Shown here: one piece after another, positions 7,880 through 23,879 of the stretch | How the letters are laid out: the number at the start of each line of letters is the position of its first letter | Position numbering within the stretch: position 1 is the stretch's first letter | DNA from: a virus | Virus record (IMG/VR): IMGVR_UViG_3300027970_000139 | Location: 1-24,019 of that record | Strand: one strand, 5' to 3' | Length of the DNA stretch: 24,019 bases | Made by a program: the position numbers and the translations under genes | Notes under the pieces: model-generated | The model's input: only the letters and a program-made list of their open reading frames with translations | The model's database searches: none | What the model was told of the DNA's origin: nothing

Positions 7880-7903
7880 GGGGCACAGCCCCCACTTTTT
7901 GTT
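7880..7903 (+). terminator. Intrinsic terminator after terL
   Basis: Immediately after the terL stop lies GGGGC-ACA-GCCCC (7880-7892), then CAC-like bases and five T (7896-7900). This is a classic rho-independent layout and separates terminase transcription from the sigma gene. Confidence 0.7.
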
Positions 7904-7917
7904 GTTCTGCCGTTTGT

Positions 7918-7933
7918 CGCACCGCGAGGTGCG
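7918..7933. repeat. Short palindromic repeat, GCACC-N4-GGTGC family
   Basis: CGCACC-GCGA-GGTGCG forms a perfect 6-bp stem with a 4-nt loop between terL and the sigma gene. The same arm sequence recurs at 10575, 12074-12105, 13355 and throughout the 17246-17424 tandem array. With the terL terminator just upstream and the sigma start at 7944, it could affect sigma expression. Confidence 0.5.
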
Positions 7934-7943
7934 CTCAACATCC

Positions 7944-8522
7944 ATGACCGCTCCGCCAGCCAACCACCACCCACGGCCGCTGCAGCCCGGGGCGATGGGC
8001 ACCAGCACCATCGCTTCTCGCCGCATCAGCCGCTGTCAAAGCGACCAAGGCGGGCCTCCAATCCGTCAGCGGCCCTGCCGCTCACCCCATGCCACTGCTG
8101 ATGCGCTAGTGGTGGAGCATCTGCCCTTTGCCGCCAAGGTCGCCGCCAACTACGCCCGCCGCACCGGCCACCCCAAAGAAGACCTGGAGCAGCTGGCGGC
8201 GATCGGGCTGATCAAGGCGTCACGCCGGTACGACAGCCAGCGGGTGAACCGCAGCTGCTCCAACTTCATCGCCTACGCCAGGCCCTACGTGAACGGAGAG
8301 ATCACCCACTACCTGCGCGATAAGGGGTTCTTGATTTCCGTGCCGGGCCGCTGGCGGGAGCTGCATGCCCGCGGGCAGAAGCTGCTGCGCCAGGGACTGG
8401 CTCCAGCCCAGGTGCCGCAGCAGCTTGGCCTCACACCAGGGCGTTGGGCTGAGATTGCAGCGGCCTGCTCAGTGCGGGTGGTGGCGATGGCGATCAGCGA
8501 CGACGAAGCCCTGAGGGGCTGA
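7944..8522 (+). CDS. Phage sigma factor with regions 2 and 3 but no region 4
   Basis: 192 residues from ATG 7944 (an in-frame TTG exists at 7899). After ~50 disordered residues, LVVEHLPFAAKVAANYARR, KEDLEQLAAIGLIKASRRYD and FIAYARPYVNGEITHYLRDK form a full sigma-70 region 2 (core binding, -10 recognition, melting), closest in style to the SigB/SigF group with its 'GEI.hylRDkg...vP.r' stretch. Residues ~141-182 (LLRQGLAPAQVPQQLGLTP) resemble region 3. The protein then ends with no region 4, the -35-binding HTH. Without it the factor would depend on -10 or extended -10 contacts or on a partner protein. It sits between the terminase and portal genes, a sensible place for a late-gene activator. 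Confidence 0.8.
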   Translation: MTAPPANHHPRPLQPGAMGTSTIASRRISRCQSDQGGPPIRQRPCRSPHATADALVVEHLPFAAKVAANYARRTGHPKEDLEQLAAIGLIKASRRYDSQRVNRSCSNFIAYARPYVNGEITHYLRDKGFLISVPGRWRELHARGQKLLRQGLAPAQVPQQLGLTPGRWAEIAAACSVRVVAMAISDDEALRG

Positions 8523-15110: not shown

Positions 15111-15404
15111 TCAGCCCCTCTTCTTCCAGCGAGACGGGTCTTGCCGTCCATGGACCGCAAGAACAATGATCTCCTCGGACTCGACGCGGAAATAAACGGC
15201 GTAGGGGAAGCGCTGCAGGATCACCCGCCGGATTGGACCGACTACCGCTGGATACCTCAGAGGACGGTCCTGCAGCCGTTGGACGCCATCAGCCAATGCC
15301 TGGGCGAACATCGCTCCAAGCCCTGCTTGGCGTTGCTCATACCAGTTCCGACTTTCGATCGCCTCCTGCTGCGCCTCTAGCAGGAACCTCACCGGCAAGG
15401 TCAT
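15111..15404 (-). CDS. parE: RelE/ParE-family toxin
   Basis: 97 residues from ATG 15404. The pattern VRFLLEAQQEAIESRNWYE, GLGAMFAQALADGVQRL, RPLRYPAVVGPIRRVILQRF, PYAVYFRVESEEIIVLAVHG and final RQDPSRW is the standard ParE/RelE fold ('a..di.ea..wYe.r..glg..f...v......i...P..yp.v...irr..l.rFPy.v.y.v....i.ilav.H.rr.p..W'). ParE proteins poison gyrase; RelE types cut mRNA, and sequence alone does not tell which. The start overlaps the antitoxin stop by 4 nt, the usual antitoxin-first layout. It could be a plasmid or prophage stabilisation module or a defence cargo. Confidence 0.88.
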   Translation of the reverse strand: MTLPVRFLLEAQQEAIESRNWYEQRQAGLGAMFAQALADGVQRLQDRPLRYPAVVGPIRRVILQRFPYAVYFRVESEEIIVLAVHGRQDPSRWKKRG

Positions 15405-15631
15405 GCCAGGTCGAGGTCCTGGCGAACGACATCCCAGTTGATGGCCTCTTCTGGATGCTGTTGATGCCGGGCCCAACGACGCTCAAGTTCAGAGCTCAGC
15501 TCTGCGTCGATCTGGAGGGCCTGCTCCTGCTCAGCGATTGCCAGGCTCTGCCAGAGGGCCATCGCCAGCTCAACCCTCTCAGCCCCTGGCAGCGCCAGCA
15601 ACTCAGCCAGCTTGGTTGCTCCCATCAACAA
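15401..15631 (-). CDS. Antitoxin of the putative addiction-module component family (TIGR02574-like)
   Basis: 76 residues from ATG 15631 (MLMGATKLAELLALPGAERV). The sequence LLALPGAERVELAMALWQSL, an acidic helix with LSSELERRWARHQQHPEEAI, and the ending NWDVVRQDL match the short helical antitoxins of TIGR02574, which pair with ParE/RelE-like toxins. It presumably masks the toxin encoded directly downstream and may repress their shared promoter. That promoter would lie in 15632-15713, the same gap that holds the CGGCAATAGC motif for the divergent capsid gene. Confidence 0.85.
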   Translation of the reverse strand: MLMGATKLAELLALPGAERVELAMALWQSLAIAEQEQALQIDAELSSELERRWARHQQHPEEAINWDVVRQDLDLA

Positions 15632-16649: not shown

Positions 16650-17078
16650 ATGAACGGCAATCCCTTGCTTGATGCGGAGACCACCTTGGTGGGCTGGACC
16701 AACCGCAGCGCCATACGCAACTTGGAGCGCACCTTCCTCTCTGGAGAAGAGGTGCTGCTTACAACCAAGCTCGATGCGGCGTCACGCTTCTCAGTAGTAG
16801 CAAGTAATCCAGGCTCTGCTGCTGCAGTTGAAATTCAGGTGTCCTTTGCGCCTGTGCTGCGTGATGGCACAACCGGCAGCTGGGTGGTTGCAGCCACCGT
16901 GGCACTACCAGCAGAAGGCGGGCGGGTGGAGGCGTTCATCAGTGGACGTGACATTCAGCTCAATGCAGCTGATTTAGCCGATGTGGATCTGCCGGCGGTC
17001 TGCTTTGCCAAAGCGGAGGTGAGCCCCGAGACCCCAGAGGGGATGCACGTAGGACTTACCGCCACCATCCCCGCTTGA
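16650..17078 (+). CDS. Beta-rich virion-type protein, possibly capsid decoration
   Basis: 142 residues from ATG 16650, 3 nt after the capsid gene. Alternating strands such as EEVLLTTKLDAASRFSVVA, AVEIQVSFAPVLRDG, SWVVAATVALPAEGGRVEA and GMHVGLTATIPA suggest an all-beta sandwich without enzyme motifs. Directly downstream of the capsid gene, the commonest roles are decoration or head-stabilising protein; a connector role is an alternative. No family was recognised by name. Confidence 0.6.
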   Translation: MNGNPLLDAETTLVGWTNRSAIRNLERTFLSGEEVLLTTKLDAASRFSVVASNPGSAAAVEIQVSFAPVLRDGTTGSWVVAATVALPAEGGRVEAFISGRDIQLNAADLADVDLPAVCFAKAEVSPETPEGMHVGLTATIPA

Positions 17079-17083
17079 GCGCC

Positions 17084-17809
17084 ATGACGACTCTTGTGCG
17101 CCATGACCTCATAGACCCCGCCATTCCTGAGGGGATGGTGCGGATCAGTGCTGGAGCAGAGCACCGCTTTATTTGGCCGGTGCACCTAGGCGGCTGGCAA
17201 AGCCTGGGCTGGCAGCTGCAAGAAGCTGGATCAGATCTACCGGATGCACCTACTAACGGTGCAGATCTGCCAGGCGCACCTACCGGTGCTGATCTGTCAT
17301 ACGCACCTACCGGTGCTGATCTGTCATACGCACCTACCGGTGCTGATCTGTCATACGCACCTACCGGTGCTGATCTGTCATACGCACCTACCGGTGCTGA
17401 TCTGTCATACGCACCTACCGGTGCGACACCAGAAGAGCTGCTGCCTGGCTTCGTCCCAACCGATCTGATCGCCCTGGAGCCAGAAGAAGTAGCTCAGCCA
17501 CTGCCTGCCGTTGAACCAGAAGCAGTGCCAGAAGCGGAATGGGAACCGGAGCCCGAACCAGAGCCTGAACCAGCAGCTGAGCCAGGGTCAGCAGCTGAGC
17601 CCAAGCCAGATGCAGCCCCTGCGCCAGTAGCAGCGCCTGATTTTCAGGCCATGACTAAGGCGCAGATCCTTGAGCATTGCTCCAGCGTTTATGGCGTCGA
17701 GCTCGATGGCAGCCAAACCAAGGCAGAGCTGGTGGAGCAGGCCACGGCACTTGCGCAGTCATCCGAGCAGCTGCTCCCAGATGTGCTGCTGGATGACCCC
17801 CTGATTTAA
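17084..17809 (+). CDS. Virion-type protein with a nonapeptide repeat array and a HeH/Rho-N-like C terminus
   Basis: 241 residues from ATG 17084 (a TTG at 17075 is possible). Residues ~1-50 form a small beta region (RISAGAEHRFIWPVHLGGW). Then come five exact and two variant copies of the nonapeptide ADLSYAPTG, encoded by a 27-bp tandem repeat. Next is an acidic Glu/Pro stretch (EPEPEPEPEPAAEPG type). The protein ends with MTKAQILEHCSSVYGVEL and QTKAELVEQATAL, the two-helix pattern of HeH/LEM or Rho N-terminal domains often appended to phage head-region proteins. The middle is probably an extended spacer. Its length is likely to vary between relatives by copy-number change. Molecular role unknown. 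Confidence 0.65.
   Translation: MTTLVRHDLIDPAIPEGMVRISAGAEHRFIWPVHLGGWQSLGWQLQEAGSDLPDAPTNGADLPGAPTGADLSYAPTGADLSYAPTGADLSYAPTGADLSYAPTGADLSYAPTGATPEELLPGFVPTDLIALEPEEVAQPLPAVEPEAVPEAEWEPEPEPEPEPAAEPGSAAEPKPDAAPAPVAAPDFQAMTKAQILEHCSSVYGVELDGSQTKAELVEQATALAQSSEQLLPDVLLDDPLI
17246..17424 (+). repeat. 27-bp coding minisatellite built on the GCACC-TACC-GGTGC palindrome
   Basis: Five identical 27-bp units run from 17290 to 17424, each ending in GCACCTACCGGTGC. They are preceded by a diverged unit (17263-17289) and an older interrupted copy (17246-17262, GCACC-TACTAAC-GGTGC). The exact identity implies recent expansion or gene conversion. Each unit can form a hairpin. There are no spacers of unique sequence, so this is not a CRISPR array. 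Confidence 0.9.
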
Positions 17810-18641: not shown

Positions 18642-20045
18642 ATGCCCTGGAGCCAGATCACCAACATCAAGGGGCCCCCAGGCGAAAAAGGGGAGGCGGG
18701 GCTGGCCAACGGCAGCTTCTCCAAGCTGCTGACCACACACCTGGATCTCTACGTCTCAACAAGCGGCAGCGACAGCACCGGCGATGGCACAGAAGCTCTG
18801 CCCTGGGCGACGCCACACCGGGCGATGCGTGAGCTGTTTGCCTACATCATCACGCCGGAGGCCTCAGCGACGGTTCACATCGCCGATGGCCAGTACACCT
18901 TCTCTGAGCCGCTGGAGATCGGCCATCCCAACGGAGAGCGGATCAAGGTATTGGGCGGCTCAGTGGGCAGCAGTAAACCCTCCAGCAGTGACCTCACCGG
19001 CAATGCTGAAACCGGCAACACCGCCGGCAGCCTGGCCTTCAATGACGCCGTGCTGGCTGGCTACTACAACACCCGCTGGCAATTCAATGCACCGCAAGCG
19101 CTGCTCTGTTCATCTGGCAATGGTGTGACGCTGGATCGAATCCTGGTGCGCGGTGCCGGCCAGACCACCACGGCGGGGCTCTCGCTCAAGGGTGGCTCCG
19201 TCAACCTCGGAACCAACTATTCCGGCAACGTGGCCTTCTGCAATTGCAGCCTGGGCGTTGGGGTTGCGGCCAGAAGCCTCAAGGCTCCTGGCATTCAGAT
19301 TGTCAACTGCAACACCGGGCTCAGAGTCAGCGGCGGAACTGCCGAGCTGGACTCGCTTGTGGTGGCCAACTGCAGCGAGCATGGCATCGACTGCAGTGGC
19401 GGCTATCTGCAGGCGATGACTGCCACCAGCCAGCGCAATGGCTCAAGCGGTGTGCGCGCTTACGGCGCGGCGGTGGTGGAGTTCAGCTACTCCAACTGCT
19501 CGTTCAACAACGGAGATGGGATTGAGGCCCGCGGCGCGGCCACGGTGACGGCAAACAGCAGCAAGCTCCGCAACCAAACCAGATCAGGTGCTGTGGCAGG
19601 TGGTAGCGCCAGCGTGAGCCTCGATAGCGCCCAGCTCTCGGGCAACCAGATGGATGGATTGAACGCAGCTGAGCACGCCACGCTCAGCGCCGGCTATGCC
19701 CAGATCCTCAGCAACGGCCAGGTGGGGCTCAGCCTGAGCGGCTGCGCGACGGTGAAAGCATCTGGGGCCTCTATCTCCAGCCACCCGCAGGTGGGGGTGA
19801 GTGTGAATGGCCCGGCCTACCTCGATGCCTGGGGCGCGACGATCAGCAGCAACACCGGTGGCGGGGTGAGCATCCAGCAGGGCGGATCGGCCTATCTGGT
19901 GCAGGCATCGCTGCCTGGCAACGGCGGGACGGGCATCAAGGTCCAGGGCGATGGCTACGTCGATTTCACTGGGGGGGATCCGTCGGTGACGCTCTCCCCT
20001 GCTGCCAACACGCTCGGCAACGGCAGGGGTTACATCAGCAGATAG
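18642..20045 (+). CDS. Tail spike with right-handed beta-helix
   Basis: 467 residues from ATG 18642, 3 nt after the previous gene. A short N-terminal adaptor MPWSQITNIKGPPGEKGEAG with collagen triplets leads to DLYVSTSGSDSTGDGTEALP and WATPHRAMREL, the entry motif of pectate-lyase-like spikes. From ~130 to the end, strands recur every ~22 residues with a G-I-x-x (GIDCSGG, GSSGVRAYG, GDGIEARG, VGLSLSGCATV, GVSVNGPAYLD, GGVSIQQGGSAYL), the coils of a parallel beta-helix. Such spikes bind and often cut surface polysaccharide, though catalytic residues cannot be assigned by eye. Ser, Asn and Cys line many turns. Confidence 0.85.
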   Translation: MPWSQITNIKGPPGEKGEAGLANGSFSKLLTTHLDLYVSTSGSDSTGDGTEALPWATPHRAMRELFAYIITPEASATVHIADGQYTFSEPLEIGHPNGERIKVLGGSVGSSKPSSSDLTGNAETGNTAGSLAFNDAVLAGYYNTRWQFNAPQALLCSSGNGVTLDRILVRGAGQTTTAGLSLKGGSVNLGTNYSGNVAFCNCSLGVGVAARSLKAPGIQIVNCNTGLRVSGGTAELDSLVVANCSEHGIDCSGGYLQAMTATSQRNGSSGVRAYGAAVVEFSYSNCSFNNGDGIEARGAATVTANSSKLRNQTRSGAVAGGSASVSLDSAQLSGNQMDGLNAAEHATLSAGYAQILSNGQVGLSLSGCATVKASGASISSHPQVGVSVNGPAYLDAWGATISSNTGGGVSIQQGGSAYLVQASLPGNGGTGIKVQGDGYVDFTGGDPSVTLSPAANTLGNGRGYISR

Positions 20046-20119: not shown

Positions 20120-20665
20120 ATGGCTTGGGTGGCAGCCGGCTCCTTAAAAGGACCGCAAGGCATTCAGGGTCTGCCGGGTGTAGACGGCCCGGCTGGACCG
20201 GCCGGAGCAGACGGTGCCCAGGGCATCCAAGGCGAGCAGGGCATTGCCGGACCAGAAGGCCCCCAGGGCCAGCAGGGCATCCAGGGTGCTGCGGGTCTGG
20301 GCATCACCTTTAAGGGTCAGGTAGCAACAGAAACGGAGTTGCCGGTTGATGCGGCCCAGGGCGATGCCTACATCGTGCAGGCCGATGACTCCTTCTGGGT
20401 GTGGGATGCGGCCAGCAGCAGCTGGGTGACTGGCGGCTCGATCCAGGGGCCCCAGGGCATTGCAGGCCCCCAAGGCCCGCAGGGCCTGCAGGGAGACGTC
20501 GGGCCCCAGGGCATTCAGGGTCTCGATGGCCCAGCTGGCATTCAGGGCGTGCGCGGCACCGGCTGGTTCAACGGCAGCGGTGCCCCTGCAGCTGAGATCC
20601 CTGGCTCAATTCCTGGCGACCTGTATCTGGACAAGGACAGCGGTGATGTCTACACGCTGAGCTGA
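20120..20665 (+). CDS. Collagen-like phage fibre protein
   Basis: 181 residues from ATG 20120. MAWVAAGSLKGPQGIQG opens a first Gly-X-Y tract (~10-58), interrupted by a compact domain (~59-105) GITFKGQVATETELP, AQGDAYIVQADDSFWVWD. A second Gly-X-Y tract (~110-150) and the ending GTGWFNGSGAPAAEIPGS with PGDLYLDKDSGDVYTLS follow. Collagen tracts form trimeric rods in phage fibres; the two globular pieces recur in many phage fibres as a 'GDayiV' domain and a 'WFnGsG.P....GdlYLd..tGdvY' tip. The same end occurs at 18638. Stop and next ATG are adjacent. Confidence 0.85.
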   Translation: MAWVAAGSLKGPQGIQGLPGVDGPAGPAGADGAQGIQGEQGIAGPEGPQGQQGIQGAAGLGITFKGQVATETELPVDAAQGDAYIVQADDSFWVWDAASSSWVTGGSIQGPQGIAGPQGPQGLQGDVGPQGIQGLDGPAGIQGVRGTGWFNGSGAPAAEIPGSIPGDLYLDKDSGDVYTLS

Positions 20666-22043: not shown

Positions 22044-22343
22044 CTAGGCCAGGGCGTGCCGCTGGGATTCGAGCGTGCAGCGCCGCAGCAGCTCCTGCTG
22101 GGCCAGCAGCCGCTCATCGAGGGCATCCACCCGGGCCAGGCACTGGCGGATGGCGGGCAGCACCTCTTCTTCCAGAAGAGTGATCTCCTCTTCTCCATAG
22201 GGCTGCTCGATCCAGGTGCGACGCAGCGGCAGATCGCGCCGCAGCATCAGCACCACCTCGATGGAACGGAGGGTGGATTCGAGCAGCAGGAACGGATCTT
22301 CTTCTGGCCGACAGAACTTGGACTGGGCGCTATGCGTGGCCAT
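22044..22343 (-). CDS. Helical acidic unknown protein
   Basis: 99 residues from ATG 22343; a longer frame to 22628 overlaps the S24 gene and looks like a shadow. The protein is nearly all helix: DPFLLLESTLRSIEVVLMLR, EEEITLLEEEVLPAIRQCL and VDALDERLLAQQELLRRC, with WIEQPYG as the only clear turn. Heptad spacing of Leu suggests a coiled coil or helical bundle. It lies 157 bp after the S24-like gene in the leftward block. No known motif. Confidence 0.55.
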   Translation of the reverse strand: MATHSAQSKFCRPEEDPFLLLESTLRSIEVVLMLRRDLPLRRTWIEQPYGEEEITLLEEEVLPAIRQCLARVDALDERLLAQQELLRRCTLESQRHALA

Positions 22344-22500
22344 GGGATTCGGCGCCAGGTGTGGCGCAGCGATGGGACCGATCCCAGAGGCGTACTGACG
22401 CAGGAAGGAAGCACAATGGAGAGGACCCGGAGTAAGCCCCACCGGAAGCCGACCCAGCCAGAGCGAGGCTTCTGCACAGGTCAGGACAAGGCAGGAGCGA

Positions 22501-22905
22501 TCAGATCTTGCGTAAGCGCGGCTTGCCAAGGTGATGCACCGCGTGCACCACCACGCCAAATAGCCCTGAGCGATCAAAGACCTCCAGGTCCAAAGGAATT
22601 GCTGTCTCTCCTGGCCGCACCGGTTCAAGCAACCACTGCTCTCCCTGACGCAACAGAGGCCGCATCAAGAAGCTGCCCTGGTGGGCAACTACGACGACAT
22701 GGCCGGAGCACGGTTCCACACTGCGGTCGATCACCATCAAGTCGCCGTCGTTGATCCCGTGCTGGCGCATGCCATTGCCGCTGGCCCGCATGTAGAAGGT
22801 GCAAACCGGTTTGGGAATCAGGGCGGATTGGAGATCCAAGCCCTCACCCAAAGAGCCCGGGCAGAAGGGCACAGGCTCTCCAATAGGCAGGTCGGCCAAA
22901 ATCAA
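22501..22905 (-). CDS. S24-family (UmuD/LexA-like) protein lacking both catalytic residues
   Basis: 134 residues from TTG 22905, as no ATG or GTG is available before a TAG upstream. The UmuD framework is clear: LDLQSALIPKPVCTFYMRAS, GMRQHGINDGDLMVIDRSVE, GHVVVVAHQGSFLMRPLL, then an FDRSGLFGVVVHAVHHL end. Active UmuD has Ser in SGDSM (S60 of E. coli) and Lys in FTVKRL (K97); here these are SGNGM (Gly45) and FLMRPL (Arg82). The usual Ala-Gly self-cleavage segment near the N terminus is also absent, and there is no HTH. It therefore cannot use the Ser-Lys mechanism and may act as a dominant partner of host UmuD or LexA-like proteins. No umuC is in the window. Confidence 0.82.
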   Translation of the reverse strand: MILADLPIGEPVPFCPGSLGEGLDLQSALIPKPVCTFYMRASGNGMRQHGINDGDLMVIDRSVEPCSGHVVVVAHQGSFLMRPLLRQGEQWLLEPVRPGETAIPLDLEVFDRSGLFGVVVHAVHHLGKPRLRKI

Positions 22906-22971
22906 ACCAGTGGAAGCAGCAGTACAGCCGTTCTACTCCTGGTGAGGTGTGTTGGGTTGGGCTGGGCCGGC

Positions 22972-23211
22972 TCAGCTGCCTGCTTCTGGCCAGGGCACAA
23001 GCTTCATATCCCCCACCTTGTTCCAGGCTTTGCATTTGGGATCAGCCAGCCGGTAGATGGCGCTGCCGTCTGGCCCGTTCTTGGTGACGACCAGGACCGG
23101 CGCACCAGGCCAGCCGATCCGCCAAAGCTGCTCACCATCGGCCAACACAATCAAATCGCCGGTGGCAGGGTGCTTGAGGTCTGGGGCCATCGCTGCACCG
23201 TAGAAAGCCAT
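22972..23211 (-). CDS. Small beta-rich unknown protein
   Basis: 79 residues from ATG 23211. LKHPATGDLIVLADGEQLW, RIGWPGAPVLVVTKNGPDG, SAIYRLADPKCKAWNKVG and MKLVPWPEAGS suggest a small all-beta fold of SH3 type. The frame extends to a GTG at 23298 that overlaps the sigma stop as TAGTG, which would add 29 residues; I prefer the ATG because a perfect hairpin (23269-23289) lies in that extension and the added sequence is less protein-like. It is part of the leftward operon between the sigma-like and S24-like genes. Function unknown. Confidence 0.55.
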   Translation of the reverse strand: MAFYGAAMAPDLKHPATGDLIVLADGEQLWRIGWPGAPVLVVTKNGPDGSAIYRLADPKCKAWNKVGDMKLVPWPEAGS

Positions 23212-23268
23212 TGGCGATTCGTTGCTAGTGCGGCAGAACAATCGGTAGGGGCTCGCACGGATCAGGTG

Positions 23269-23289
23269 CGCCTGGCTCCGCGCCAGGCG
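23269..23289. repeat. Perfect hairpin between the second sigma gene and its downstream neighbour
   Basis: CGCCTGGC-TCCGC-GCCAGGCG forms an 8-bp perfect stem 9 nt downstream of the sigma stop on the minus strand. There is no T tract, so mRNA processing, attenuation or stability control is likelier than termination. Confidence 0.5.
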
Positions 23290-23297
23290 GGTGGGCA

Positions 23298-23879
23298 CTA
23301 GGCCACCAGCTGCTGCCGCAGAGCCTCAAGAGCCTTCTTCTGGGCCCGCTGCACGGACATGGCGCTGATCTCCAGCTGCTCTGCCGCCTGCCGGAGCGAG
23401 AGGCCCTCAAGGATGGTGAGCCTCAGGGCCGTGGCTTGCGGCGCAGGCAGCTGATCTACAAGCTGCTCCAGCGCCAGATCATCAGCGGGGCTTGCTGCTT
23501 CTTGCTCTGGGCTGGCCAGCTGATCGAGCAGGCACGGCTCGCCAGCGGCCTGGCCATCAAGGCTGATGTGACCCAAAGGGCACTGACCCTGCTCATGCAG
23601 CCGCCGTGGAATGCGCACCAGCCGCACCCGATCGCGCAGGTGATGCTGCAGGGCTCCTGAGATGCAGCGGCGCAGATAGGGCTCTGCAGGCTCGCCTGCT
23701 TTGCAGCGCAGGACAGAGCGGAGCAGGGCTTCTCTGGCTACCTGGATCAGATCCTCCCGCTCGACCAAAGGGAAGAAGCGGCGGGCTACAGCTGAAGCAA
23801 CGGAATCAGCCAGGGAGAGGTGCTCCAGCACCAGGGCATCGCGGGCACGGAGGGCAGAGCGGGAAAGTGGGGCAGCCAT
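23298..23879 (-). CDS. Sigma-70-like factor with regions 2 and 4, region 3 reduced
   Basis: 193 residues from ATG 23879. Residues ~12-92 match sigma region 2: DALVLEHLSLADSVASAVAR, EREDLIQVAREALLRSV and YLRRCISGALQHHLRDRVRL, followed by VRIPRRLHEQ. A Gly/Pro/acidic linker (~97-135) takes the place of region 3. Residues ~137-190 form region 4, LPAPQATALRLTILEGLSLR and QAAEQLEISAMSVQRAQKKA, the HTH that reads -35 boxes. It thus has the domain set missing from the factor at 7944 and lacks the one that factor retains. It heads the leftward block with the inactive S24 protein. It could drive early genes, autoregulate, or supply region 4 to the other factor. Confidence 0.78.
   Translation of the reverse strand: MAAPLSRSALRARDALVLEHLSLADSVASAVARRFFPLVEREDLIQVAREALLRSVLRCKAGEPAEPYLRRCISGALQHHLRDRVRLVRIPRRLHEQGQCPLGHISLDGQAAGEPCLLDQLASPEQEAASPADDLALEQLVDQLPAPQATALRLTILEGLSLRQAAEQLEISAMSVQRAQKKALEALRQQLVA

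Follow-up and report, generated by a model that had tools for sequence, protein, structure and literature searches.

A catalytically inactive UmuD-like protein of picocyanobacterial prophages and a putative division of host UmuD between two genes

The sequence analysed here, referred to as the window, is the whole 24,019-base virus record IMGVR_UViG_3300027970_000139 (positions 1–24,019). At 22501–22905 on the minus strand it carries a UmuD-like gene of a prophage class (class F) in which the N-terminal arm is lost and neither residue of the Ser60–Lys97 catalytic dyad is present. Tentatively, with confidence a little short of even, we read it as an SOS-controlled accessory gene whose product would substitute for the non-catalytic subunit of host UmuD in its processed form. 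More tentative still is the wider proposal that Pol V of freshwater picocyanobacteria might be activated through a protease-only and a substrate-only UmuD, leaving trans cleavage between two gene products as the sole route, and that prophages might carry a pre-processed substrate bypassing this checkpoint.

The product, 134 residues long when counted from a TTG codon, matched Pfam Peptidase_S24 (8.4e-13), phrog_811 (UmuD-like; 9e-23) and the Escherichia coli UmuD' chains in the PDB (6e-14), and its homology to UmuD is far above chance. An AlphaFold2 model (mean pLDDT 71, with the first 31 residues unreliable) had UmuD' as its best structural match (1umu, Z 11.4, 97 residues, rmsd 3.1), and the protein combines a UmuD-like sequence with the C-terminal-domain fold. 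Alignments placed Gly45 (SGNGM; codon GGC at 22771–22773, minus strand) where UmuD has the nucleophile Ser60 and Arg82 (FLMRPL; codon CGG at 22660–22662, minus strand) where it has the general base Lys97. An earlier note on this DNA had described a UmuD-like protein with Gly for the nucleophile and Arg for the general base and with no DNA-binding domain, and these descriptions were borne out. The 134 residues held no N-terminal DNA-binding domain, the S24 domain starting at residue 8, which ruled out a LexA-like repressor. The note had also taken the self-cleavage segment to be missing. This was partly correct: the segment is shortened and altered, but about eight residues remain ahead of the Gly25 position, and Ile8–Gly9 (22879–22884, minus strand) occupies the position of the cleavage bond (Cys24–Gly25 in UmuD, Ala–Gly in the hosts). 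The cleavage-region motif is GEPVPF instead of GFPSPA, with LPIGEPVP where hosts have AAGFPSP. In near relatives, the start is an ATG at the codon following the window's TTG. This codon is ATT in the window (22900–22902, minus strand) and is flanked by TTG codons on both sides; thus, the window copy either relies on a TTG start or is poorly translated, and its own expression is uncertain.

Besides this gene, the window carries those for terminase, portal and endolysin, two sigma-factor genes and a gene for a major capsid protein (phrog_212, 2.6e-72). With the capsid protein as query, the window was assigned to a family of prophages found in Cyanobium, Synechococcus, Vulcanococcus and Aphanothece from fresh water. 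The UmuD-like protein, used alone against viral contigs, gave no matches, and relatives were reached via the capsid protein. The gene was regarded as accessory because it is absent from most related virus records (1 of 35 carries it). It lies opposite to the structural genes, and its position varies, following the tail genes in the window and falling between the scaffold and capsid genes in prophage locus L313. The 108-residue ORF upstream of it (22972–23298, minus strand) travels with it in several prophages, with homologues of 82%–90% identity adjoining the class F gene in L102/L311, L309, L310 and L313. The conserved prophage ORF downstream (22044–22346, minus strand) had 72 matches in related prophage loci, and its relatives adjoin class F genes in L102/L311 and L313. 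In these two loci, from Synechococcus sp. HJ21-Hayes and genome G191, respectively, the cassette adjoins capsid genes 62% identical to those of the window, which suggests either mosaic exchange or neighbouring prophages of the family in one genome.

The class F set comprised 15 prophage sequences with a minimum pairwise identity of 49%, the relatives coming from genomes of cyanobacteria and from one further virus contig. Both catalytic residues were missing in all 15 (Gly/Arg in 12, Arg/Arg in three), and no relative with an intact Ser–Lys pair was found. Where a cleavable Cys/Ala–Gly bond would follow an arm of about 24 residues, class F has about eight residues and mostly Ile/Leu–Gly (I/L-G-E/Q-P as opposed to A-G-F-P). 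Judging from these replacements, class F proteins should be neither protease nor substrate. Position 41 is His or Gln in class F and Asn in host classes C and S described below; together with the altered arm, this change may shift the choice of partner, and the effect of class F may be of either sign. Class F resembles E. coli UmuD and UmuD' in fold, in sequence (ca. 31% identity) and probably in SOS control, whereas umuC was not found beside the gene in the window, a possibly incomplete contig, or in the relatives examined (up to 1.5 kb on each side).

A LexA/SOS box, AGAACGGCTGTACT, lies at 22921–22934 (minus strand), 15 nt upstream of the TTG start. It was the only match to AGWACNNNTGTACT in the 24 kb with one mismatch allowed, and shuffled sequences averaged 0.07 matches; the published cyanobacterial LexA-box consensus is AGTACWNWTGTACT (PMC3091678). 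When a box was scored as present at nine or more of 11 positions, it occurred upstream of 12 of 14 class F relatives and of 40/41 class C, 49/50 class P and 51/58 class S host genes, against 5 of 682 control stretches. LexA control of the window gene is predicted from this match, and the gene behaves as an accessory gene under its own putative SOS control.

The hosts are Cyanobium and Synechococcus, and their UmuD proteins were compared for residues 60 and 97, for the cleavage motif and for linkage to umuC, the class calls resting on the two residues and the cleavage site. A single canonical UmuD (class C) with the Ser/Lys dyad and an AGFPSP site was found in 66 genomes, with umuC adjoining in nearly all, and 53 genomes carried two UmuD genes, one of class P and one of class S. 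The genomes read at the locus were picked partly for their multiple matches and were not a random sample, so the 59 genomes with class S against 66 with class C do not represent a frequency in the family. Class P has Ser60/Lys97 in 49 of 49 sequences, a gapped site region and linkage to umuC. Class S has Ala60/Arg97 in 58 of 58, with G25-F26-P27-S28 invariant; the residue preceding the bond is small (Ala 53, Ser 3, Thr 1; n = 57), and S also keeps a good part of the sequence ahead of it. The S gene usually lies away from umuC, except in four genomes, where it stands upstream of P-umuC on the same strand. Only 21 positions were invariant among the 49 P sequences, Ser60 and Lys97 included, and P was the fastest-evolving class (median pairwise dN/dS of 0.455, compared with 0.27 for C and 0.26 for S).

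The dyad and the cleavage site are thus found on separate genes that occur together. P accompanied S in 53 genomes, six had S alone, and among the host genomes scored none had P without S or a canonical UmuD together with S (Fisher p of ca. 2e-27 in an early tally). In the six genomes with S and umuC, no P was detected near umuC or elsewhere, so that either S is useful without P there or P was missed, a result that constrains the split-UmuD reading given below. A single umuC-linked UmuD with Ala60/Lys97 and a cleavage site was found in G100 (L322/L352) and G122 (L321/L351), and one with Ser60/Arg97 in G055 (L334); these are possibly non-cleaving UmuDs or intermediates. No S or P was found outside the family in 146 genomes across the phylum, of which 18 had a match, a small sample in which distance lowers sensitivity. 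Among other cyanobacteria, two LexA-like proteins had Leu at the position of the catalytic Ser (ATGELM) and kept the Lys.

P and S each retain the part of the reaction that is missing from the other, and we read them as a natural split UmuD in which P would cleave S in trans. The retention of Ser60 and Lys97 in P despite so few invariant positions points to a proteolytic role. The same division of labour has been engineered with E. coli UmuD: in vitro, on RecA/ssDNA, the armless UmuD 18 cut UmuD S60A in trans (PMC5342242). That pair was built in the laboratory, whereas P and S are two natural genes in at least 53 genomes, Lys97 is also replaced in S, and their pairing and trans cleavage, like the pairing of class F, are what we infer from the sequences. 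The E. coli UmuD itself differs from F and S, which lack Ser60 and Lys97, and from P, which lacks the cleavage site. A reason for specialisation is offered by a Pol V model in which the two UmuD' subunits differ, the UmuC tail binding one while the other inserts its arm into UmuC (PMC12926913). Upon DNA damage, RecA* would promote the cleavage of S by P in trans within a P–S dimer to give S', and P–S' together with UmuC would form active Pol V. A class F protein, with no arm, cleavable bond or dyad, could act as a ready-made S' in partnership with P or canonical UmuD; Pol V would then assemble without passing the cleavage checkpoint, as in the case of P1 HumD and UmuD'. Such a Pol V might help to copy a damaged or induced phage genome.

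This role for class F is favoured because its closest likenesses are P1 HumD, N15 gp26 and phiKO2 gp23, which are phage-borne UmuD'-like proteins without an N-terminal arm; class F is likewise phage-encoded and armless from the start. A LexA site is annotated upstream in P1 and phiKO2, Thr appears to take the place of Ser60 in N15 and phiKO2, and the GenBank record of HumD describes it as complementing UmuD'. The likeness is not complete. The three proteins begin at the Gly25 position, keep GFPSP and the Lys and share a one-residue gap near Ser60, whereas class F has lost the Lys, has a changed cleavage region and shows neither GFPSP nor the gap. In the tree described below, which covers classes F, S, C and P, class F groups with the cyanobacterial host paralogue S. 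UmuDAb of Acinetobacter and the LexA/CI-type S24 repressors share the S24 fold, but F and S have no DNA-binding domain. The earlier note had proposed a constitutive UmuD'-like partner, a proposal that agrees with the loss of the arm, the change at the cleavage site, the presence of an SOS box and the precedent of P1 HumD. The likely partner differs, however, because class F groups with the catalytically dead, site-bearing S, itself paired with the active, siteless P.

A tree built without the arm and columns 60 and 97 (101 columns, with many unresolved forks) placed S and F on one side and C and P on the other. F formed one clade (SH-aLRT 99), as did P (89), and S was not resolved as a clade; the residue-based class labels required four changes on this tree, the fewest possible. 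The simplest reading would be that a prophage acquired a host S gene and then dropped the arm. Class F occurred in 10 of 59 S-bearing genomes and in one of about 65 canonical genomes (G036; p = 0.003, uncorrected for host relatedness).

Among the other explanations, the strongest, although unlikely in our assessment, is that class F acts as a decoy, a role also suggested in the earlier note. It would pair with host P, S, canonical UmuD or UmuC and leave Pol V blocked or held inactive, for example to restrict mutation in the phage genome or to restrain the SOS response. The missing catalytic residues and the alteration of the arm expected to enter UmuC are consistent with such a role, and overproduced UmuD 8 S60A harms UV-treated E. 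coli (PMC5342242). However, the P1, N15 and phiKO2 proteins are armless too, with HumD annotated as complementing UmuD', and expression timed by the SOS response would poison Pol V just when the induced phage meets damage. The ready-made S' is therefore preferred to the decoy, on the present sequence comparisons; a decoy directed at LexA found no specific support.

Less probable again is a permanent asymmetric pair of P and S that undergoes no cleavage, with class F as a third member, the phage's counterpart of the subunit that bears the arm or binds the tail. The insertion of only one UmuD' arm in the Pol V model would suit this arrangement and offers another explanation of why GFPSP is conserved in S, and the six genomes with S and umuC but no detectable P are also in its favour. 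On the other side stand the dyad kept in every P sequence of such a variable class, and the small residue and pre-bond segment kept in S, features that argue for cleavage of S by P.

Estimates of selection further supported the maintenance of the class F protein. The dN/dS between the window and its class F relatives was 0.10–0.24, far from the value near one that decay would give, and the median among the other class F pairs was 0.18. In the other 14 sequences analysed, the reading frame stayed open over 110 or more aligned residues, and truncated copies were present in three genomes (G040, G191 and G198). Across these sequences, the double loss of the dyad is, as we read it, fixed in class F under purifying selection, and together with the low dN/dS it supports the earlier suggestion of selection for a non-proteolytic function. 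Decay of a single copy was ruled out by the residues shared among relatives and by dN/dS, and a captured host UmuD gene degenerating in the prophage is very improbable, since the ATT in the window and the truncated copies are outweighed by the constraint, the open frames and the SOS boxes.

A UmuD split into cutter-only and cut-only proteins appears to have been known so far only from engineered mutants; among the openly accessible papers searched, the only trace was a tally of umuD duplicates for Cyanobium gracile PCC 6307 (PMC5101192). Self versus mutual cleavage of UmuD/LexA-like proteins has been studied with artificial mutant pairs, and nature appears to have produced such a pair, now retained by dozens of species, which makes trans cleavage in vivo directly testable. 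The split may also be relevant to the question of why Pol V works with two UmuD' copies that differ in role. If it is real, the phage gene would represent a virus copying the finished product of the UmuD switch.

Several other features of the window were observed. Two different sigma-70-type factors (phrog_36098 and phrog_351) are encoded on opposite strands of the one prophage, at 7899–8522 (plus) and 23298–23879 (minus). Between the endolysin and capsid genes, two small overlapping ORFs (15111–15476 and 15401–15631, both minus) resembled, by eye only, a RelE/ParE toxin and an antitoxin. The ORF at 17075–17809 contains an in-frame tandem repeat at 17244–17468 with SYAPTGADL units. Tail-region proteins are encoded at 18642–20045 and 20120–20665, the latter with collagen-like GPQG/GIQG repeats.
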